A program made the position numbers and the translations under genes. From Cognatiyoonia sediminum (GTDB lineage Bacteria; Pseudomonadota; Alphaproteobacteria; Rhodobacterales; Rhodobacteraceae): a stretch of 64,000 nt of DNA. The notes beneath the pieces are model-generated. The model worked only from the letters and a program-made list of their open reading frames with translations, was not told the DNA's origin and did no database searches. How positions within the stretch are numbered: position 1 is the stretch's first letter; every line of letters begins with the position of its first letter. Positions 9,049-62,290 of this stretch are shown here, piece after piece. The stretch lies in NCBI RefSeq assembly GCF_900129845.1, contig NZ_FQXB01000002.1, positions 124,001 to 188,000 on the forward strand, read 5' to 3'.

Positions 9049-10221
9049 ATGACGAATTTCGACACCCCAATCGACCGCCGCGGCACCCATTGCGTGAAAT
9101 GGGACAGTATGGAGGGGCTTTATGGCGTCTCCCCCGACGATGGCATCGCGATGTGGGTGGCGGATATGGATTTCGTAGCGCCAGATTGCATCCAAAGAGC
9201 CATTCAGGACATGAAAGACCACGGCGTCTATGGCTATTTTGGTGACGAAAGCACCTATCGATCTGCGATCCAATGGTGGATGGCTGAACGGCACGGTTGG
9301 CAGATTGATCCCTCTTGGATTTTCACCACCCACGGCTTGGTCAACGGCACGGCCATGTGTGTCGACGCCTATACCAATGAAGGCGACGGCATTGTCCTCT
9401 TTACCCCAGTTTATCACGCCTTCGCCCGTGTGATCAGCGCTGCCAATCGTAAGGTCGTCGAATGCGAACTCGTGAACGCGGACGGTCGCTATGAATTTGA
9501 TTTCGATGCCTATGACGCGCAAATGACGGGCAATGAACGAATGGTCATTCTTTGCTCACCCCACAACCCGGGCGGACGGGTTTGGACCAAAACAGAACTT
9601 CAGGCTGTCGCGGCCTTTGCCAAGCGGCATGAACTGATTTTGGTGTCTGATGAGATTCACCATGACCTGACGATGCCCGGCCATACCCACATCCCGATGT
9701 CGCATATCGACGGTATCACGGACCGGCTAGTGATGATGACGGCGACAACAAAGACCTTCAACATCGCAGGCAGCCACTCTGGCAATGTGATCATCGAAGA
9801 TCCTGACCTACGCGCACGCTTTGCCGCGCGGATGGCGGCGCTGGGCCTATCCCCCAACAGTTTCGGTCTTTTCATGGCAACAGCGGCTTACACACCTGAA
9901 GGCGCCGCATGGGTCGATGACCTTACGACCTACCTCGATGGCAACCGCAAGATTTTCGACGCAGGCATCAACGCGATTCCGGGCTTGGCCTCGATGGAAC
10001 TTGAAAGCACCTATCTCTCTTGGGTCGATTTTGAGAGCACCGGCATGGAGCGGTCAGAGTTCACCAACCGCGTCCAATCCAGCGCAAAACTGGCCGTCAA
10101 CCACGGCCCAACCTTCGGCAAAGGCGGCGAGTCCTTCCTTAGATTCAACATCGCAACCCAACGCGCAAATGTCATCAAAGCGGTCGAGCGCATGCAAGCT
10201 GCCTTTAGCGATCTGCAGTAA
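9049..10221 (+). CDS. patB: PatB/MalY-type pyridoxal-phosphate C-S lyase or aminotransferase
   Basis: A 390-residue fold-type I PLP enzyme of the MalY/PatB group. It shows the N-terminal RRGTHCVKWD and WVADMDF, CSPHNPGGRVW, the SDEIHHDL cofactor motif and TATTKTFNIAGSHSG with the PLP-binding Lys near residue 235. PatB-like enzymes cleave cystathionine or other cysteine S-conjugates. True aminotransferase activity cannot be excluded. It is transcribed away from def with about 100 bases between them. Confidence 0.9.
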   Translation: MTNFDTPIDRRGTHCVKWDSMEGLYGVSPDDGIAMWVADMDFVAPDCIQRAIQDMKDHGVYGYFGDESTYRSAIQWWMAERHGWQIDPSWIFTTHGLVNGTAMCVDAYTNEGDGIVLFTPVYHAFARVISAANRKVVECELVNADGRYEFDFDAYDAQMTGNERMVILCSPHNPGGRVWTKTELQAVAAFAKRHELILVSDEIHHDLTMPGHTHIPMSHIDGITDRLVMMTATTKTFNIAGSHSGNVIIEDPDLRARFAARMAALGLSPNSFGLFMATAAYTPEGAAWVDDLTTYLDGNRKIFDAGINAIPGLASMELESTYLSWVDFESTGMERSEFTNRVQSSAKLAVNHGPTFGKGGESFLRFNIATQRANVIKAVERMQAAFSDLQ

Positions 10222-42797: not shown

Positions 42798-44836
42798 GGC
42801 CTGACCCGAGGCCGTACCTGATCATCACCCGCAGACCGAACCACAACTCCGTCGGATCCACCAATGATCCCGAAATCCGGCCGCGCAATAGGCCGCACCA
42901 AGGGTTTGAACCCGGTCAAAAGTTCCGTGAATTGCACCGGCCCAACTTCGCCCGTCAATCGCGCCTGATAAATCGGGATCGATTCCGTCACCCGCATCAC
43001 ATAATTCCGCGTCTCCCGAAACGGGATGTGCTCTATCCAGTCAATCACATCCACGTCGCCCAAACGCGGGTCACCGCGTTCGCTCATCCAAGCCTCTGGC
43101 CTGCTGGGTCCAGCGTTGTAGCCCGCTGCAATTTGCACCGGTGAAAACCCAAACCGATCTTCCAGCCCTTGCAAATACTGCGCCCCCAAACGTGCATTAT
43201 ACTGCCAATCCGCCGTCAACCGGTTCCGGCTATATGGCAGATCAAGCGACCCCGCGACCTCCTCTGCCGTGGCTGGCATCAACTGCATCAATCCAAGCGC
43301 CCCGACGGGGCTGCCCACCACCGCATTGAACTCACTCTCACGACGCGCAATTGACAAGGCCAGTTCCGGTTCCGAGGGCAGATCGAGAACAACAAGATCG
43401 TGAATCGGGAAGTAGTTCGACGGAACGATAACCCCCCGCACCACACCTTGCTTGCCGAGGATCAGCTCGTAAAAACTCTCCCCCATCTCATCGAGCAACC
43501 CACCGAGCCGCGCCAAATCCTCTTCATCCAGCGTCCGACCCAATTCAGCAAAAAACGTCACCGCAGCCCCGCGTTCCCCTGCCTCTAGCAAGGTCAAAGC
43601 CGCCCGAACCAACTCATTCTCGAACAGATCAGTCTCACGCCACTCCCGATCATCCTGCTGCCCTGTCCAAGCAGCGCTCAAAGGACGCGACAGTTTTTCT
43701 GACGCCATCAATCCATAGAACGCCGATTGATGCTCTGCCGCGCGTTGATAGGCCGCCGTGGCATCCGCCATGCCCAACACATCAAACGCTCGACCGGTCC
43801 AATATTCCATCCGTGCTATGGAAATCGGAGTATCCACCGCCGCCCGCGCTGTTTGGAAATGCCCAATCGCTGCACCGGGCTCGTTCAAATACGTCAGCGC
43901 GATATAACCCGCCAACCATTCCAAATCCGCAAAAGAAGACCCTTCGGTCAAAAAATGCTCAGACGCCAAACGATAGGCCCGCTGCGGGCTCCCCTCTCGC
44001 ATCTCTCGCCGCGCAATCGACCGCCGCCAGCTTGACCAGCGAAATGGTTGCCCCAAAGCCTCGGCGCTAGTCGACTGACTCAAAGCCAAATCCCGCGCGT
44101 CGGCATAGCGCCTGCGATCCGCCAGCCAATTGAACCGATCATATTGAAGCGCAGGCGTGTCTCGAAGCGCAGGCGGTACCGCCTGCACCTTCTCATCCAA
44201 GTCAGATTGATTACGAATGTAGGCGATCCGCGCCTCAGCCAGCGCCCGCTGATCGTCAGGCAACAGATCCAGCATCCACCCCGCTTCTTCCGTCCGCCAG
44301 CGCCAAAGCAAGTTGTCCACCCGCTCAGGGTGTTTCGGCTCGACCACAGCAGAATAGCGCTCAAGAATAGCTTCCTGCCCCTCTTCCGTCAGCCGCAGTT
44401 CAACCCATGCCGTTTCAATCACGTCCTGTGCGAGTTCATTCAGCCCGCGCGCCTCCAGCGCCTGCGCCAACCGAACCGCCCCAATGCCGGTGCGCGGGCG
44501 AATGTCACCATACCAAAGCAACACCTCCCCCGGATCGGCATCTTCGGGGATCACTTCCTCCCCCCGCGACCTGATCCGCGACAGCCCGGGCCAGTCCGGT
44601 CGGCGCGCTAGGAAATCACGATACTCGGCAAAATCGCCCTCACCAGCGCGTAAGCGAAGCCATTCGACAACATCCGCCGTGACCTGATCCTCAAGCCGTT
44701 CTTGCACAGCCGCCTCAGCCTCCTCCCACTTGTCGTCTCCTGCGAGCCGAACAGCTTCAACCGCCTGCTCAGGCATCACCTGAGACACCGCTGCCGTCGC
44801 GCCAAAGAGCGCCAAAATCAAAAGGATCGTTCGCAT
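42794..44836 (-). CDS. slt: Soluble lytic murein transglycosylase (Slt70-like)
   Basis: A 680-residue periplasmic protein with a signal peptide (about 19 residues), a long helical U-shaped domain made of repeats (about residues 25-480) and a C-terminal SLT domain: LALSIARRESEFNAVVGSPV (catalytic Glu), GALGLMQLMPATA and QIAAGYNAGPSRPEAW. It degrades glycan strands processively. Two transglycosylase genes in one window (the other at 21450) are of different families. Confidence 0.95.
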   Translation of the reverse strand: MRTILLILALFGATAAVSQVMPEQAVEAVRLAGDDKWEEAEAAVQERLEDQVTADVVEWLRLRAGEGDFAEYRDFLARRPDWPGLSRIRSRGEEVIPEDADPGEVLLWYGDIRPRTGIGAVRLAQALEARGLNELAQDVIETAWVELRLTEEGQEAILERYSAVVEPKHPERVDNLLWRWRTEEAGWMLDLLPDDQRALAEARIAYIRNQSDLDEKVQAVPPALRDTPALQYDRFNWLADRRRYADARDLALSQSTSAEALGQPFRWSSWRRSIARREMREGSPQRAYRLASEHFLTEGSSFADLEWLAGYIALTYLNEPGAAIGHFQTARAAVDTPISIARMEYWTGRAFDVLGMADATAAYQRAAEHQSAFYGLMASEKLSRPLSAAWTGQQDDREWRETDLFENELVRAALTLLEAGERGAAVTFFAELGRTLDEEDLARLGGLLDEMGESFYELILGKQGVVRGVIVPSNYFPIHDLVVLDLPSEPELALSIARRESEFNAVVGSPVGALGLMQLMPATAEEVAGSLDLPYSRNRLTADWQYNARLGAQYLQGLEDRFGFSPVQIAAGYNAGPSRPEAWMSERGDPRLGDVDVIDWIEHIPFRETRNYVMRVTESIPIYQARLTGEVGPVQFTELLTGFKPLVRPIARPDFGIIGGSDGVVVRSAGDDQVRPRVRP

Positions 44837-44985
44837 TCTGCCCGCCTGCTCATTTTGGACAGCCTTAAGGCTAGAACGAGACCCCCATCAAGGCCATACA
44901 AATTCTTGGCATTCGGCAGAAAGCCGTCTAGTAGTGTCCGCGATTTTAGAGGGCTTCCGCCCATTCCAAACAAAGGAAACGCGTC

Positions 44986-45858
44986 ATGTTTAAAGGATCT
45001 ATGCCTGCACTCGTCACGCCGTTCTCGAACGGCTCGATCGATATCGACGCGCTGAAAAAACTTGTGGAATGGCACATTGCCCAAGGCTCGCACGGTCTGG
45101 TCCCAGTTGGCACAACCGGCGAAAGCCCAACGCTCAGCCACGAAGAACACGATCTCGTTGTCGAAACCGTGGTGAAGCAAGTCGCGGGCCGTGTTCCTGT
45201 CGTTGCTGGCGCTGGCTCCAACAACACCGAAGAAACCGTGCGCCTTGTCAAAGCAGCGAAAGCGGCAGGCGCAGATGCGGCTCTTGTTGTGACACCTTAT
45301 TATAATAAGCCCACACAGCGCGGCTTGATTGCGCATTTCACAGCAGCAGCAGACTGCGGCCTGCCGATCATCATTTACAACATCCCTGGTCGGTCCGTCG
45401 TCGACATGACGCCGGATACCATGGCCGAACTGAGCAAGCATGAGATGATCGTCGGCGTCAAGGACGCTACCGGCGATCTGGCCCGTGTGCCACAGCAGCG
45501 CCATCGCAGCGGCAAAGATTTCATCCAGCTCTCTGGTGAAGACGCAACCGCCCTTGGCTTTAACGCACATGGCGGTGTTGGCTGTATTTCTGTCACGGCC
45601 AATGTGGCGCCAGCCCTCTGCGCCGAATTCCAAGACATGACCCTATCTGGCGACTTTGCGGGTGCATTGACTTTGCAAGACCGTTTGATGCCCCTGCACG
45701 AGGCCATCTTTGCAGAACCGGGTGTGTGTGGTGCCAAGTATGGTCTATCGCTCTTGGGGCATTGCAACGAAGATGTTCGGTCTCCGTTGACGCCCCTCAC
45801 AGACGAAACCAAAGCGCAAATCAAAGACGCTATGGTCTTCGCTGGCCTGATAAACTAG
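44986..45858 (+). CDS. dapA: 4-hydroxy-tetrahydrodipicolinate synthase
   Basis: A 290-residue Dap[52 protein letters not shown] (catalytic Tyr), [13 protein letters not shown] and [10 protein letters not shown] with the Schiff-base Lys. It condenses pyruvate with aspartate semialdehyde, the entry to lysine and meso-diaminopimelate. It is divergent from slt; lysA lies at 62.3 kb. Confidence 0.97.
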
Positions 45859-45890
45859 CGACTCACAACAAAAATCCCTGAAATTCCCAT

Positions 45891-45911
45891 CACGCCGCCG
45901 CGAGCGGCGTG
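45891..45911 (+). terminator. Stem-loop after dapA
   Basis: CACGCCGC and GCGGCGTG make an 8-bp GC stem with a 5-base loop 33 bases after the stop. The following sequence is not a clear T-run, so termination is probable but not certain. Confidence 0.55.
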
Positions 45912-46289
45912 ACATGATTTGACATGTTTGCTCACGGCGGTGCGACTGAGCAGAAATAATGCATCATCACAGGTTTGAGGGTGCATTTTTTTCGTGATCA
46001 CTGCGTCAGGTTTTGTGTCAAGATTGGTGTTGCTTCTGACCTGCAAACGAGCAGTTCTGCGCGCAGATAAGCTGCTTTCTGCGCGGAAATGCGCAGAAGC
46101 TGCCCAAAGGTCACCTTTGCGCTTTTTCAACCCCCATTACAGGTCAAATTCCGTCTCTTTTTCGTGATGGGCTTACCCCTTCACCAAACGCCTTTTCGAC
46201 CTCAATTGTTCCTCATCAACCGCGGCACCTCCCGCCGCACAAACAAACTAAACTGGTCCTTTCGACCTCCCAAATGAAGGAACTAAAAC
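45912..46289 (+). promoter_or_regulatory. Long leader of the secreted-protein array
   Basis: About 380 bases without a convincing gene lie before the array. It holds GACATG twice at 10-base spacing (45911-45926), TTTTTCGTGAT twice (near 45990 and 46160), a perfect palindrome TCTGCGCGCAGA (46056-46067) and a hairpin of the same half-sites, TTCTGCGC/GCGCAGAA (46077-46098, loop GGAAAT). This looks like a multi-site promoter region or structured leader. The first array gene has GAAGGAA before ATG. Confidence 0.5.
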
Positions 46290-46619
46290 ATGTCTATCAA
46301 AATGATCGCACTTGCAGCAGCAACCGTCGCAGCAACAGCTTCCGCTGCTTCCGCAGACAGCTACTTCGGCTTCGAAGATCGTCTGGAAAACTCTTCCACA
46401 TTGGAACTGGGAACAGTTCGCGCAGCAGCTGACGGCGTTGTTGAAATCTATGACGGCCGCTTTGGTAACCTCGGCGCTCTGCTCGGTACAGAAGAAGTTG
46501 CAGCCGGCGCTAACAAAGACGTTCGTGTGAACGTTGGCCACGGTCCAGATGCAGACGTTATCGCTGTTCTGAAAATCGACGGTCAGATCGTTGCTCAGCA
46601 AGAGTACGAAATCGACTAA
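46290..46619 (+). CDS. Small secreted protein, array copy 1
   Basis: A 109-residue protein. The signal peptide is MSIKMIALAAATVAATASA with likely cleavage after ASA (about residue 22). The mature part (about 87 residues) is acidic, has no cysteine and is beta-rich: LENSSTLELGTVRAAADGVV, EIYDGRFGNLGALLGTEEV and VRVNVGHGPDADVIAVLKID. The pattern resembles the Ig-like DUF7282 fold, but I cannot name a function. Codons such as GCA, GCT and CGT are favoured, fitting high expression. Copy 3 differs at only five residues. Confidence 0.88.
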   Translation: MSIKMIALAAATVAATASAASADSYFGFEDRLENSSTLELGTVRAAADGVVEIYDGRFGNLGALLGTEEVAAGANKDVRVNVGHGPDADVIAVLKIDGQIVAQQEYEID

Positions 46620-46627
46620 TCCCCCCC

Positions 46628-46674
46628 GGTTGGCCTGATCCCCTGTCTGTCCCCATGAATGGATCGGGCCAACC
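46628..46674 (+). other. Stem-loop after array copy 1
   Basis: GGTTGGCCTGATCC and GGATCGGGCCAACC form 14 continuous pairs (one G-T) with a 19-base loop, 8 bases after the stop. No T-run follows, so it may protect or process the transcript rather than end it. Confidence 0.7.
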
Positions 46675-46730
46675 ACCCTAACCTAACTAACGAAACCAAA
46701 CCTCCCAAACCCTTTGAAAGGATACCTCCC

Positions 46731-47060
46731 ATGTCTATCAAAATGATCGCACTCGCAGCAGCAACCGTCGCAGCAACAACAACAGCAGCATCTGCAGACA
46801 ACTACTTCGCATTCGGCGACCGTCTGGAAAACTCTTCCACTCTGGAACTGGGCACAATTCGTGCAGCAGCTGACGGCGTTGTTGAAATCTACGATGGCCG
46901 CTTTGGTGACCTCGGCGCTCTGCTCGGTACAGAAGAAGTCATGGCCGGCGCTAACTCTGACGTACGTGTAAACGTAGGTCACGGCCCAGACGCTGACGTG
47001 ATCGCCGTGCTGAAAGTCGACGGCCAGATCGTTGCTCAGCAAGAGTACGAAGTAAACTAA
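46731..47060 (+). CDS. Small secreted protein, array copy 2
   Basis: A 109-residue paralogue. The signal peptide is slightly changed (ATTTAASA), and the mature start reads DNYFAFGDRLENSS rather than DSYFGFEDRL. The rest is nearly the same as copies 1 and 3, with MAGANSDVRVNVGHGP and QQEYEVN at the end. The upstream AAAGGATACCTCCC-ATG block is shared with copies 3 and 4. Function unknown. Confidence 0.88.
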   Translation: MSIKMIALAAATVAATTTAASADNYFAFGDRLENSSTLELGTIRAAADGVVEIYDGRFGDLGALLGTEEVMAGANSDVRVNVGHGPDADVIAVLKVDGQIVAQQEYEVN

Positions 47061-47067
47061 TCTCCTT

Positions 47068-47103
47068 GGCAGCGCAGGCTCTTTCTTACCTGCCTGCGCC
47101 GCC
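47068..47103 (+). other. Stem-loop after array copy 2
   Basis: GGCAGCGCAGGC pairs with GCCTGCGCCGCC (11 of 12 pairs) across a 12-base loop, 8 bases after the stop. The position and fold match those after copies 1 and 3, but the sequence differs. Confidence 0.7.
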
Positions 47104-47151
47104 ACCCTAACCTAAACCAAACCTCCCAAACCCCTTGAAAGGATACCTCCC

Positions 47152-47481
47152 ATGTCTATCAAAATGATCGCACTTGCAGCAGCAACCGTCGCAGCAACAG
47201 CTTCCGCTGCTTCCGCAGACAGCTACTTCGGTTTCGAAGATCGTCTGGAAAACTCCTCCACTCTGGAACTGAGCACAGTTCGCGCAGCAGCAGACGGCGT
47301 TGTTGAAATCTACGATGGCCGCTTTGGTGACCTCGGTGCACTGCTTGGCACACAAGAAGTTGCAGCCGGCGCTAACAAAGACGTTCGTGTGAACGTTGGC
47401 CACGGTCCAGATGCAGACGTTATCGCTGTTCTGAAAATCGACGGTCAGATCGTTGCTCAGCAAGAGTACGAAGTAAACTAA
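47152..47481 (+). CDS. Small secreted protein, array copy 3
   Basis: A 109-residue paralogue almost identical to copy 1; the five changes are LS for LG, GD for GN, TQ for TE, and VN for ID at the end. The signal peptide is unchanged. Such closeness between non-adjacent copies points to recent duplication or gene conversion. Function unknown. Confidence 0.88.
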   Translation: MSIKMIALAAATVAATASAASADSYFGFEDRLENSSTLELSTVRAAADGVVEIYDGRFGDLGALLGTQEVAAGANKDVRVNVGHGPDADVIAVLKIDGQIVAQQEYEVN

Positions 47482-47488
47482 TCCCCTA

Positions 47489-47530
47489 GGCGGCGCGGGC
47501 GCATTCTCTCCCTCACTGGCCCGCGCTGCC
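47489..47530 (+). other. Stem-loop after array copy 3
   Basis: GGCGGCGCGGGC pairs with GCCCGCGCTGCC (12 pairs, one G-T) across an 18-base loop, 7 bases after the stop. Relative to copy 2, an A-T pair has become G-C, a paired change. Confidence 0.7.
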
Positions 47531-47589
47531 AACCATCACTCAGGAAACCTCCCTCTCTCATCCCAAACCTCCCCCAAAGGATACCTCCC

Positions 47590-47919
47590 ATGTCTTTCAA
47601 AATGATCACACTCGCTGCCGCTACTGTTGCAGCAACCGCAACTGCCGCTTCTGCTGACAACTACTTTGCCTTTGGCGAAACGCTTGAGAACTCTTCCACA
47701 CTAGAGCTCGGCACAGTCCGCGCAGCCGCTGACGGCGTCGTGGAAATCCGCACCTTCAATGGTGGCGTACCAGGCGCACTTCTTGGTACAGAAGAGGTTA
47801 TGGCCGGCGCAAACTCAGACGTCCGCGTCAACATTGGTCACCGTCACAACCTCGACGTTGTCGCCCAGCTGGTGATCGACGGTCAGGTTGTTGCAAGCAA
47901 AGACTACGACCTCGAATAA
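47590..47919 (+). CDS. Small secreted protein, array copy 4
   Basis: A 109-residue paralogue and the most divergent copy: MSFKMITLAAATVAATATAASA, then DNYFAFGETLENSSTLELG, EIRTFNGGVPGALLG in place of EIYDGRFG, and VNIGHRHNLDVVAQLVIDG with VVASKDYDLE at the end. Signal peptide and length are conserved. It has AAAGGATACCTCCC before the ATG, as in copies 2 and 3. Confidence 0.88.
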   Translation: MSFKMITLAAATVAATATAASADNYFAFGETLENSSTLELGTVRAAADGVVEIRTFNGGVPGALLGTEEVMAGANSDVRVNIGHRHNLDVVAQLVIDGQVVASKDYDLE

Positions 47920-47931
47920 GCTTTCTGGTTT

Positions 47932-47961
47932 GGTGTGCCACGCCGACGGGATGTGGCACCC
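47932..47961 (+). other. Stem-loop after array copy 4
   Basis: GTGCCAC and GTGGCAC form a 7-bp stem, extendable by two G-C pairs past a bulge, with an 11-base loop. It begins 12 bases after the stop and is weaker than the other three. Confidence 0.5.
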
Positions 47962-48065
47962 AATCAGGCGCTGCCGACCCACGCGTCTGGGAGGTCTGCG
48001 GCGCGGCTGGCAGCGCCCTCCTTTCCCTCCTGGCCGATCCAGCTTCGACCTCCCCTAAGTCCTCT

Positions 48066-48088
48066 CCCCGTCAGCCCAGCTGGCGGGG
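48066..48088. terminator. Terminator between the array and the convergent YcaQ gene
   Basis: CCCCGTCAG and CTGGCGGGG form a 9-bp stem (one G-T) with a 5-base loop. It lies between convergent genes, so it could act on both, though there is no long T-run. Confidence 0.55.
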
Positions 48089-48089
48089 C

Positions 48090-49295
48090 TCATGCTTTCC
48101 GCAGCCACCCGTCCTGAAATTGCACCTCTTGGCAGGCACCAAGCCCGCAGGCGCGCTGAAGTTCGGCATGCAACCGTGAAATGCGCCCAACTCCCATCCG
48201 AACGCCCTCTTCGGGCCAGAACGCCGTGACATTGAGAACTTTGCCCGGCCGATCGGCCTTCATATCGACCCGCCCGATCAACCGTTCGCCTTCCATCACT
48301 GGAAACACATAATAGCCGTAAGTCCGCTTTGCCGCTGGTACGAAGATCTCGATCCGATAGTTAAAGCCAAAGAGCCGCTCCGCCCTTTTCCGATCCCGCA
48401 AAGCCGGATCAAATGGAGACAAAAGCCGCACCCGCGGCGACAGCTCGTCAACCTGTTCGTCCATAAGTTCAGGTCGCGCGAAAGACCGCCTCAACGTCCC
48501 GTCGGTCCCTTCAACGTCGATTTCAACTATCCGCCCTTCCGACAGCTCCCGCGCGCACCATTCCTTGGCTTCCTGTTTTGTCACCGTCGCCCAAAACGCA
48601 GAGATCTCACCACTCGTCGCAAAACCCAGCCTGTCCAGCGCGGCATTACAATGCCAATCAATCGCGTCGCGTTCGTCGACATAGGCATTGAGATATTCAG
48701 GAGGAATCACCCGTTCGGTCAAATCGTAGATTTTCCGAAACCCTTCGCGGCGTACCACGCTCAGCTGACCAGAATGCCACAGATACTCCAACGCGGTCTT
48801 GCTCGGATGCCAATCCCACCAACCACCGGATTTCTTTTCCTCGTCACGGCCTACATCCGCACTGCAGCAACACCCTTCGTCGGAGATCTGCTTGAGGACA
48901 CCGTGAGTCTTCTCCAGAAACCCTGCCCGCCGATCTTTCGCCCAGCGCGCCTCAAGTTCCTTTGCCGCGCGTTCAAACCTGATCCGCCACATCGGAAAGA
49001 ACTGGATCGGAATGGTCGAGGCGTCATGGGTCCAATGCTCAAAGAGCTTGCGATCCCGTGACAGCAAGTTTTCCAAGGCTCGTGGTCGGTATTGCTGACG
49101 TCGCGACCACAAAATGAGATCATGCGCCCTCGCAAAGGTGTTTACGCTATCAAGCTGAACAAACCCAAGGTCTTCGATGACACCCGCCAGTTCATCGCCA
49201 CGCCCTTTTCCCGAAGGTGCATTAGCCAACAAATGCCGCTGCAAAAATATGCGGCGCGCCTTTTGGTTGGTAAGAACAGGAATCGTCCTAGTCAT
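48090..49295 (-). CDS. YcaQ/AlkX-type DNA glycosylase (HTH_42 winged-helix family)
   Basis: A 401-residue HTH_42 protein. The catalytic QxD-type motif is GFVQLDSVNTFARAHDLILW; other parts are LLSPFDPALRDRKRAERLFGF and IEIFVPAAKRTYGYYVFPV. The family unhooks DNA interstrand crosslinks and removes alkylated bases. Residues about 140-155 (GCCCSADVGRDEEKKSG) include three adjacent cysteines, which is odd. It is co-transcribed after the ion channel gene with an 8-base overlap. Confidence 0.9.
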   Translation of the reverse strand: MTRTIPVLTNQKARRIFLQRHLLANAPSGKGRGDELAGVIEDLGFVQLDSVNTFARAHDLILWSRRQQYRPRALENLLSRDRKLFEHWTHDASTIPIQFFPMWRIRFERAAKELEARWAKDRRAGFLEKTHGVLKQISDEGCCCSADVGRDEEKKSGGWWDWHPSKTALEYLWHSGQLSVVRREGFRKIYDLTERVIPPEYLNAYVDERDAIDWHCNAALDRLGFATSGEISAFWATVTKQEAKEWCARELSEGRIVEIDVEGTDGTLRRSFARPELMDEQVDELSPRVRLLSPFDPALRDRKRAERLFGFNYRIEIFVPAAKRTYGYYVFPVMEGERLIGRVDMKADRPGKVLNVTAFWPEEGVRMGVGRISRLHAELQRACGLGACQEVQFQDGWLRKA

Positions 49296-49716
49296 CTATA
49301 GGAACAACACGCGCCTGCCGTAGCAATTCAATCATAATGGCCGAGATCAGACCCACATTCAGCAGCCCATTCACCGCTGTCATGCCACCCAGCAAACGCC
49401 ATTGCTCGGGCAAGATCACGTCACCGTAGCCTAGTGTCGTATAAGACACGAGGCCGAAGTAGACAGCTTCTTCCATAGTGTCGAAAACAGCCAACTGCAT
49501 GAAGCACCATGCCCAAAGCCAAACGCCCACTGTAATCTGCAAAAGAGCCCAGAGTGCCGCAACCATAAGAAATATAACAACTTTCAGCCCTTGCCGAAGT
49601 GTCGCAAGAAATCGATTTAATTGTCGCAGCGCAGACTCAATTAGCCAAAATCCGGCAGCAGAAAAAATCATCGACACCATAAGTATCGCCGCCCCGATAC
49701 TGATTTGAACCAACAT
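49288..49716 (-). CDS. Two-helix potassium channel-like protein
   Basis: A 142-residue membrane protein. Hydrophobic segments are at about residues 7-25, 45-72 and 108-130, with a pore loop [14 protein letters not shown] containing the TxGYGD potassium filter. The pore domain sits without a cytoplasmic regulatory domain, so it would form tetramers. It overlaps the YcaQ gene. Confidence 0.88.
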
Positions 49717-49776
49717 TGGCCTTTGCTCCCTTCCAGTCTTGTTTCACGAGATCGATTGTCCTATCTCTCGCCAACT

Positions 49777-50250
49777 ATGGCTAAGAAACCGGAAAATAAG
49801 AACTACAAAGTTCTCGCTGAAAATCGGCGGGCCCGGTACGACTATGCGATTGAAGAAGATTTGGAGGTCGGGATCGTGCTTTATGGTTCCGAAGTGAAAT
49901 CCTTGCGTCTTGGACAATCCAATATCGCTGACAGCTATGCCTCGGTTGATGATGGAGAACTTTGGCTGACCAATGCCTATATCGCGCCTTACGATCGCGC
50001 CATGTTCAGTCATGAAGAACGACGGAAGCGAAAACTCCTCTGTTCAAAACGCGAAGTCGCGAAACTCTGGAACGCGACCAAACGCGAAGGGATGACGCTT
50101 GTACCGCTTGTGATGTACTTCAACGACCGCGGCTTGGTGAAACTCAAGATCGCCACGGCCAAAGGCAAAAAGAACCACGACAAGCGGGCCTCCGATGCCA
50201 AACGCGATTGGAACAGGCAGAAGCAGCGGCTCTTGCGGCACGATAGCTAA
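49777..50250 (+). CDS. smpB: SsrA-binding protein SmpB
   Basis: A 157-residue Smp[58 protein letters not shown] and a basic C-terminal tail ([20 protein letters not shown]). It binds tmRNA and rescues stalled ribosomes. A longer upstream frame begins inside the leader; ATG 49777 is the family start. tmRNA is not in this window. Confidence 0.96.
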
Positions 50251-59656: not shown

Positions 59657-62290
59657 CTAGAACCGATCTAGCAACCTTTTAAGATAATCCCGTTCGACCT
59701 CCGGTCGGGATTGCTCGCCTGATCTGCGGCGTATCTCACCAAGCAATTCATCCGCCCTGCGATAGACGTCCTCGCCATTCAGCAGGTTCTCATCGGTGCC
59801 AAACTGCCCCGAATTACCCACTTCCCGACCCAAAGGATCAGTCCGGTTCGGCTGCGTGCGCCCTGTTGCGTCACCCTGCTGGTTGCCTTGCCCAGGTTCC
59901 GTATTCTCGTTTTGAGCCAGCGCCTCACGCAAAGATCTCATCCCATTGCGCAGCGCATTCATCGCTTCGGCCTGTCGGTCAATGGCTTCCGCCAAGTCGC
60001 CTTCCCGCAGCGCCTCTTCGGCTCCGTCCATTGCCCCCTCGGCCTGCTCTAAGGAGCGGCGCGCAAATTCCCCGGCTTCACCCTCTAGGTTCGGCAAAAC
60101 CCGCTGCTGACGCTCCAATTCGTCGCGCAAAGCCTGCTGGCGATCCGCCAATGACTGCTCATCGCCACCTTGGCCGCTGTTGTCCGCACGCCCGCTGCCT
60201 TGACCCTCGCCATTTTGGTTCTGCTGGCCAAACTGATCACCCGCTTCCCCTTCTTGGCCAGAGCCGGTTTGACCGTTCTGCTGCCCCGGCTGCAACTGAC
60301 CTTGCTCGCGCCCTTGCTGCTGCCCCGGCTGTTGGCCGCTCTGCTGCTGCCCTTGCTGGCCCTGCTGCCCGCGGTTGGTCTCTTCTTGCAGATCGCGGAA
60401 CGCATCGTCTGATAGCTCTTCCTGCTCTCGCAACGTATCTGCCAAGTCCTGCATGGATTGCTGGCCCGGCGTGAGCGGTCCGCCCTCGCCCCCTTGGCCT
60501 TGCGTGATCTGCAAATTCTCCATCAGCTGATTGAGCTGTTCCATCAGCTGCTGCGCCTCAGCCATCCGGCCTTCTTGCATCAGCTCTTCGATGCGATCCA
60601 TCAGGGCCTGCAACTCATCCTGCGTGAATTCCATCGAATTCTCGGAGGTCTGCGGCTGGTCCGTGTTGTTCTGGTTCGGATCCATCTGATCGGCGAGCAT
60701 TTGCATATACTCGTTTGTTGCCTCACGCAGCTCATTCATCAGCTCCGCGATTTCCTCATCAGACGCCCCATTGCGCATCGCTTCCGACAACCGTTCCTGC
60801 GCCCGTCGCAACCGTTCGCGTGCGTCGGCCAAAGTGCCCTCTTCAAGCTGGATCGCCAAATCCCACAAGGCTTGCACGATTTCATCACGGTTTTCGTCGG
60901 TGAAACCGTTCTCAACAAAGGTATCCAGCCGCCGCGTGATCGCGCGCATCCGCAGGAACGTCACCTCGTTCGAAAACAGACCCTCAGGCCGATGCGCAAT
61001 CGCCTTCATGATCTGAACAACACGTTTCCCATTGTCCTTTGACCACAACAAATCGCGCCGCTGCTCAATGATCGCCCGTGCGAATGGTTGGAAGAACCGC
61101 CGACCCGGCAAAATGATCCGCTCCGGTTCCGTTACGCCCATCTGCTCAGCCTCATCCTGCACAGACAAGGTGATCGTCACCGGCAGGTTCGCAAACGGGT
61201 GCTCACTAAAGTCATCAATCAGCAATTCTTCAAAGTCGCTACGATCCCCGCTAAAGGGCATCGGTAAATCGATCACCACCGGTCCACGCGCCTCAGGCGC
61301 GATCGCCAGCCCGTGACGACGATCAACCGCCCCTAAGTCCAAAGCGATCTCGGCCGTCCCTGAAACTACACCATAGTCATCTTCCGCCCGGAACGGCTGG
61401 CTCATCTCTCCCAAAGCGTCCGCCTCAATCGGGCCGGTGAGTTCCACAAAGGGAGGCTGATCTTCAATCACATTGACCGCCCAAGCCGCACCGTTCTCGC
61501 CCTCAATCGCAATCTCACCCGATTGGGCCACGACAAATTCCTGCTGCGCATCAGATGCCGCGCCAAGATCCTCTGTCCGGCCCGACACCGTCTCGGCCAC
61601 GGTCAGCGCGCCAACTTCACCATAAAGGCGCAAGGCAATCTCTGACCCCACAGGCACCGGCAACGGCCCCGGCGGAATGTCATTTAGATAAAGCGTCGGC
61701 TTGCCAGTATAGGCCGGCGGGGTCACCCAGCCTTCCCACACAGGGCCCGCCGCCAAATTTGGCCCATCGGTCGAAAGGCTTTCACCTACCGTGGTAATCC
61801 GAAACAGCGATCCGAACGTCAACGCACAGACAAAGAACAATAACGCGATAAAGCGCAGCCCGTAGGGATCACGATCCGCGACTCGCAAATCTGGCTCAAC
61901 CGCCGCCGCGTCCTTTGTCCGCTCCGCCATCCGCGCCATATGCGCCTGCCAAACAGCCTCTGACGCCGCATCACCAGAGCCAATCGCCTGACTGTCCGCC
62001 ACAGCCGCAATTGGACGCCCCGGTAAGGCCGCATCGACCTTATCAACAGCCTCTTGCCGCGACGGCCATTTGAATTGCCGAATGCCCCAAACCAAAGCAC
62101 CAACAAGGGCCAAAAAAACGACAACAAAGAAGGTCCAAAGACCCTCCAATGACATGGTCTCATGCCAGCCGAACAAAATCGGGGCGAGGCCGACGAAAAT
62201 CACCGACCAAAGCGGCCAAAACGCCCGCACCACCTGCTCGGCCATCATGCCGAAACGGGTCAACGCGACAGGGCGCTTTAAGTGCTGCAT
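59657..62290 (-). CDS. TIGR02302/DUF4175 family membrane protein
   Basis: An 877-residue protein. Membrane helices lie near the N-terminus (about residues 27-43, 50-70) and at about 148-166. A periplasmic region follows, then long charged helices (DERLSEAMRNG-like segments about 480-560) and a Gln/Gly-rich stretch at about 610-710 (many GQQ repeats). The C-terminal part returns to helices (LEQAEGAMDGAEEALREGDL). This is the TIGR02302/DUF4175 family of alphaproteobacteria. Function unknown. It lies just after lysA on the same strand. Confidence 0.9.
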   Translation of the reverse strand: MQHLKRPVALTRFGMMAEQVVRAFWPLWSVIFVGLAPILFGWHETMSLEGLWTFFVVVFLALVGALVWGIRQFKWPSRQEAVDKVDAALPGRPIAAVADSQAIGSGDAASEAVWQAHMARMAERTKDAAAVEPDLRVADRDPYGLRFIALLFFVCALTFGSLFRITTVGESLSTDGPNLAAGPVWEGWVTPPAYTGKPTLYLNDIPPGPLPVPVGSEIALRLYGEVGALTVAETVSGRTEDLGAASDAQQEFVVAQSGEIAIEGENGAAWAVNVIEDQPPFVELTGPIEADALGEMSQPFRAEDDYGVVSGTAEIALDLGAVDRRHGLAIAPEARGPVVIDLPMPFSGDRSDFEELLIDDFSEHPFANLPVTITLSVQDEAEQMGVTEPERIILPGRRFFQPFARAIIEQRRDLLWSKDNGKRVVQIMKAIAHRPEGLFSNEVTFLRMRAITRRLDTFVENGFTDENRDEIVQALWDLAIQLEEGTLADARERLRRAQERLSEAMRNGASDEEIAELMNELREATNEYMQMLADQMDPNQNNTDQPQTSENSMEFTQDELQALMDRIEELMQEGRMAEAQQLMEQLNQLMENLQITQGQGGEGGPLTPGQQSMQDLADTLREQEELSDDAFRDLQEETNRGQQGQQGQQQSGQQPGQQQGREQGQLQPGQQNGQTGSGQEGEAGDQFGQQNQNGEGQGSGRADNSGQGGDEQSLADRQQALRDELERQQRVLPNLEGEAGEFARRSLEQAEGAMDGAEEALREGDLAEAIDRQAEAMNALRNGMRSLREALAQNENTEPGQGNQQGDATGRTQPNRTDPLGREVGNSGQFGTDENLLNGEDVYRRADELLGEIRRRSGEQSRPEVERDYLKRLLDRF

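Follow-up and report, generated by a model that had tools for sequence, protein, structure and literature searches.

The question raised by this locus is why a bacterium would keep four near-identical genes for a small secreted protein side by side, and what that protein might do. In the window, by which we mean the whole 64,000-nt stretch of DNA that was analysed, the four genes lie head to tail (Table 1) with start-to-start distances of 441, 421 and 438 nt, and a direct-repeat family of 300 nt, its members 72-87% identical to copy 2, spans them; this arrangement is far beyond chance. An earlier note on this DNA had described four 109-residue genes spaced at 421-441 nt, each with a signal peptide and a cysteine-free, acidic mature part of about 87 residues, and the description held in full: all four reading frames are open, frameshifts are absent, and the mature chain has 87 residues, no Cys and a pI of 4.05-4.34. 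The five residue differences that the note had counted between copies 1 and 3 were identified as G41S, N60D, E68Q, I108V and D109N; in copy 4, where the note had also seen a difference, EIRTFNGGV replaces EIYDGRFG.

Table 1. Features of the array and its surroundings (positions in the window)
Feature	Position	Strand	Remark
Inserted block, array plus upstream region	45859..48089	.	dapA/ycaQ tight in three relatives
Second TTTTTCGTGAT, ~300 nt before copy 1	45988..45998	+	exact match
Imperfect inverted repeat GCAGTTCTGCGC...GCGCAGAAGCTGC	46051..46103	.	seen in sequence
Conserved upstream module	46127..46168	+	TCAA starts 31 nt before TTTTTCGTGAT (46158-46168)
Copy 1, secreted Ig-like protein, 109 aa	46290..46619	+	signal peptide ~1-22, AxA site
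Intercistronic hairpin 1, no U-tract	46628..46674	+	spacer z -4.95
Copy 2, 109 aa	46731..47060	+	open reading frame intact
Intercistronic hairpin 2, no U-tract	47067..47104	+	spacer z -6.78
Copy 3, 109 aa	47152..47481	+	open reading frame intact
Intercistronic hairpin 3, no U-tract	47489..47530	+	spacer z -3.83
Copy 4, 109 aa, most divergent (71% to copy 1)	47590..47919	+	open reading frame intact
Stem-loop after copy 4	47926..47966	+	predicted fold, weaker excess over shuffles

A comparison along the length of the copies found copies 1 and 3 identical in two stretches, +0 to +75 and +210 to +315, over which copy 2 departs from them by up to 24%. Just 5' of the ATG and at the 3' end the relation is reversed: here copies 2 and 3 agree and copy 1 stands apart. 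This mosaic pattern points to gene conversion, by which the copies have probably been homogenised. In three arrays of relatives (L037, L038 and L070), third-position identity was 0.70-0.72 for the closest pairs within a genome, 0.53-0.61 for the other pairs within a genome and 0.57-0.69 for same-position copies between genomes, so that concerted evolution in this trio is weakly supported.

The codon adaptation index (CAI), calculated with eight of this genome's ribosomal genes as the reference set, was 0.835, 0.799, 0.831 and 0.748 for copies 1 to 4, compared to 0.66-0.80 for ribosomal genes and a median of 0.496 (90th percentile, 0.622) for 97 other genes of the genome. Since the array genes lie at or above the ribosomal genes, very high expression is indirectly suggested, and as judged by codon adaptation they would stand with the cell's most highly expressed genes. 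The favoured codons and high expression put forward in the earlier note are thus backed by index values of 0.75-0.84, which make such expression likely.

Each internal copy is followed by a GC-rich stem-loop that begins ~7-10 nt past the stop codon; the sequences of these stem-loops differ and their position is constant. None of 200 shuffled sequences was as stable as the internal spacers, while the region after copy 4 gave z values of -1.68 (144 nt) and -2.45 (70 nt). A T-run of at least four was present in 0 of the 10 internal spacers of close arrays (the window, L035, L037, L038 and L070), whereas many of the last genes of relatives' arrays are followed by a hairpin and then T-runs. This difference between U-less internal hairpins and U-tailed array ends fits a single polycistronic mRNA, and one polycistronic transcript with protected segments would be the simplest reading of the hairpins, although they could also act as partial terminators. 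A search for known RNA elements gave no Rfam match within 44000-50000. In the Rhodobacter puf operon, hairpins likewise lie between the genes of a highly expressed operon; in the array, a hairpin stands after every near-identical copy, which by analogy would serve dosage and not stoichiometry.

The earlier note had also pointed to repeated upstream blocks. These were found before copies 2-4, but the promoter-like element, a conserved module built around TTTTTCGTGAT, stands before copy 1 alone and is absent before copies 2-4. Among 23 upstream regions of first array genes, 14 contain TTTTTCGTGAT with at most one mismatch, compared to 0.007 expected (shuffle mean), and 20 of the 23 have a TCAA whose first letter lies 31-32 nt ahead of it; 15 nt ahead of the T-run in the module there is usually a TCAC. 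In the window as in distant relatives, TTTTTCGTGAT is located 100-175 nt 5' of the first array gene. The whole genome holds four exact sites of TTTTTCGTGAT, two of them upstream of the array and one inside a gene. The site at 45988-45998, with GTGTCAAG after it, precedes the first module by 170 nt; part of the region upstream of the array may have been duplicated as well. A TTCTGTGCA/TGCACAGAA repeat resembling the imperfect inverted repeat at 46051-46103 was seen by eye upstream of several other arrays (L035, L038 and L089).

A strict pattern of the module matched 38 sites in 395 genomes, 11 of them ahead of family members; the pattern read in reverse gave a background of ~14 matches. A wider regulon was considered and set aside, as the remaining loci examined lay mostly within reading frames. 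Since the array family was the only recurrent setting found for the module in these genomes, the module appears to belong to this family alone and to move with it. A sigma-70 scan found no plus-strand promoter, and the module is unlike a standard sigma-70 promoter; it points to a regulator that would recognise it.

The location of the array in this genome differs from that in its relatives. In ~17 genomes the family has a home locus with the order trpS...uspA-[array]-ICE-like box-nfu-tsaB-rimI, in which the identities of Usp and Nfu were confirmed by Pfam and the ICE-like box near nfu was assigned on visual resemblance to the ICE box consensus, TTTAGAA...TTCTAAA. The iron regulator Irr binds to ICE boxes (PMC3413700). 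The nfu site of the present genome lacks the array, and there uspA is followed directly by an ICE-like box and nfu; control of the array by Irr was rejected, because the box belongs to nfu and stays beside it where the array is absent. At this array-less locus (L109), the interval between rimI and bmp holds an exact TTTTTCGTGAT on the reverse strand (9949-9959), either by chance or as a remnant. The array itself is found between dapA and ycaQ, which abut in a genome of the same genus (G002) and in G034 and lie ~75 nt apart in G204. Because this junction is tight in relatives, ~2.2 kb including the upstream region is judged to have been inserted here; the block could equally well have come from another genome or have moved within this one. 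At L022 (7356-9056), where the gene order is array gene-uspA-array gene-nfu, two identical copies, each with a full upstream module, stand on either side of uspA, and this pair is a recent cassette duplication.

Arrays in other Rhodobacteraceae, which the earlier note had looked to for support, do recur. With a broad profile, family members were found in 57 of 395 Rhodobacteraceae genomes, and two- or three-copy arrays are spread over several genera (L022, L024, L033, L035, L037, L038 and L070). Carriers known by name are Flavimaricola marinus, Yoonia vestfoldensis and Pseudooctadecabacter jejudonensis. In a class-wide sample of 289 genomes, only two Rhodobacteraceae genomes were positive, apart from one DUF7282 match elsewhere. 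Because the arrays of four genomes (G289, G148, G204 and G353) run up to contig ends, their copy numbers are probably higher than counted; in G289 and G148 (L092-L095 and L100-L103) contigs stop inside arrays, and near-identical array ends recur across contigs. No match was found among phage records or viral contigs, and a phage origin was set aside. Spread by plasmids was likewise rejected, with a single distant match on an Octadecabacter plasmid: this member (L112) lies on pOA307_63 of Octadecabacter antarcticus at 60449-60787, near a recombinase gene, and is annotated as hypothetical. A literature search found no account of an array of this kind.

The earlier note had likened the proteins to DUF7282-like Ig folds, and the likeness proved to be a distant one. 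Against Pfam DUF7282 (PF23951), copy 1 scored 19.2 bits and copy 4 15.3 bits, with a gathering cut-off of 27, and no match was reported for copies 2 and 3; a clear match to a well-known family is therefore lacking. Nevertheless, a profile-profile comparison (hhalign) of the A3 family profile with alphaproteobacterial DUF7282 gave an E value of 6e-6 (prob 85, 63 columns), and a search with the A3 family profile retrieved a canonical DUF7282 protein at 8e-8, so that by sequence the family is distantly but significantly related to DUF7282. A bridging paralog of the same genome scored 24.6 bits, and its counterpart in G353 scored 30.4 bits, over the cut-off. This paralog (L034:4887-5234; C11:26886-27230 of the genome; CAI 0.802) lies between ihfB and msrB-rpsA, where msrB encodes methionine sulfoxide reductase; the ihfB/msrB neighbourhood recurs in G353, and msrB is a neighbour in G001 too. 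Both the array proteins and DUF7282 proteins are secreted and have a similar core pattern, but the array proteins are shorter, score below the cut-off and stand in tandem arrays. The C-terminal YDFG...DTP segment, which canonical DUF7282 proteins such as the L171 protein (162 bits) carry, is absent from the array family alignment, and because of this missing tail the array proteins are classed, on their sequences, as a sister subfamily and not as members.

The structure of the mature chain was predicted with a pLDDT of 88.2 and a pTM of 0.81 and has six long strands; it was used in place of a model including the signal peptide (pLDDT 72). The predicted fold is a confident Ig-like two-sheet beta-sandwich, in line with the beta-rich chain that had been expected. 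A PDB sequence search with the array proteins gave nothing significant, and many of the structural matches of the model were Ig/FN3-like. An Ig-like fold is common and reveals no function.

Overall, we consider it somewhat more probable than not that the locus is a portable gene-dosage operon for a very abundant secreted Ig-fold protein, most likely structural. In this model, the single module before copy 1 would drive one mRNA across the four copies, the hairpin after each internal copy would shield its segment from 3' decay, as the puf analogy suggests, and each copy would hence be translated many times. The product is predicted to be exported by Sec and, once its signal peptide has been removed, to fold as the acidic sandwich described above; additional copies would lift output, while gene conversion would keep them alike. 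The cassette would also be portable, having its home at uspA-array-nfu and having been moved or gained, together with its module, at dapA/ycaQ. As for the role, alignment of 70 members showed no conserved His, Cys or Trp column, the conserved residues being mostly Gly, Ala, Asn, Asp and hydrophobics. This absence, together with the apparent output and the export signal, favours a structural role, in which the product would be a major protein of the periplasm or of the surface or matrix; an enzyme or metal carrier is less likely. That most Rhodobacteraceae lack the family argues against an essential envelope component. A metal, heme or redox carrier was rejected for want of conserved His or Cys. 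Of the interpretation offered in the earlier note, the small secreted beta-rich protein, its likely very high expression, its DUF7282-like Ig fold and the arrays stand; the metal protein that it had listed as a candidate is disfavoured.

A more far-reaching reading, which we hold only tentatively, is that Rhodobacteraceae have a major protein of the envelope or matrix that has so far gone unrecognised. The portable cassette, under a promoter of its own with rigid spacing, would supply the Ig-fold subunit of this protein from tandem, homogenised copies, and the subunits would perhaps assemble into a surface layer or fibre. It is unlikely that the array encodes a stress- or iron-linked envelope protein, built beside uspA and the ICE-boxed nfu, whose copies are induced and protect the envelope. 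The conserved neighbours, a universal stress protein gene and an Fe-S scaffold gene that an ICE-like box separates from the array, would suit such a protein, as would the divergent codon-adapted paralog adjoining msrB; however, the box follows the last hairpin of the array and remains with nfu at the array-less site, the array has retained a module of its own at dapA/ycaQ, and metal or redox residues are not conserved.

That the product binds glycans, serving by itself as a carbohydrate-binding module for polysaccharides of algae or of the cell surface, seems improbable. The best structural match of the mature model was a porphyran-binding CBM (8wae; Foldseek E 1.5e-4), with an overall Ig-like sandwich that gave, for the model, a Z of 8.9 over 80 residues in the VIA comparison (rmsd 2.2), and domains of GbpA appeared as well. 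However, the same Z was reached by Ig domains of gingipain, BSP and complement domains, identity to 8wae is 14%, and the array proteins differ from it in being free-standing and arrayed and in lacking a conserved Trp: 63 of the 70 members are Trp-free, and a single Tyr column is at least 60% conserved (70%). An ordinary recent tandem duplication whose redundant copies are decaying with little functional meaning is very improbable, for although copy number ranges from 1 upward among relatives and most genomes lack the family, the copies here are all intact, codon-adapted, hairpin-spaced and mosaic, and arrays recur in several distant genera.

Compared to the earlier note, the measured CAI, the hairpins, the module before copy 1, the uspA-array-nfu home, the dapA/ycaQ insertion and the mosaic copies are new. 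If the gene-dosage operon is confirmed, its product would rank near the top in expression among the uncharacterised proteins of these bacteria, and the locus would be a clean natural case in which output is raised by multiplying a gene, giving it a promoter of its own and stabilising its mRNA with hairpins. The distant DUF7282 family would also gain a bacterial system open to genetics. Two other proteins (L171:3251-4174 and L173:2614-3885) each carry two DUF7282-like domains with Met/Asp/Glu-rich linkers between them.
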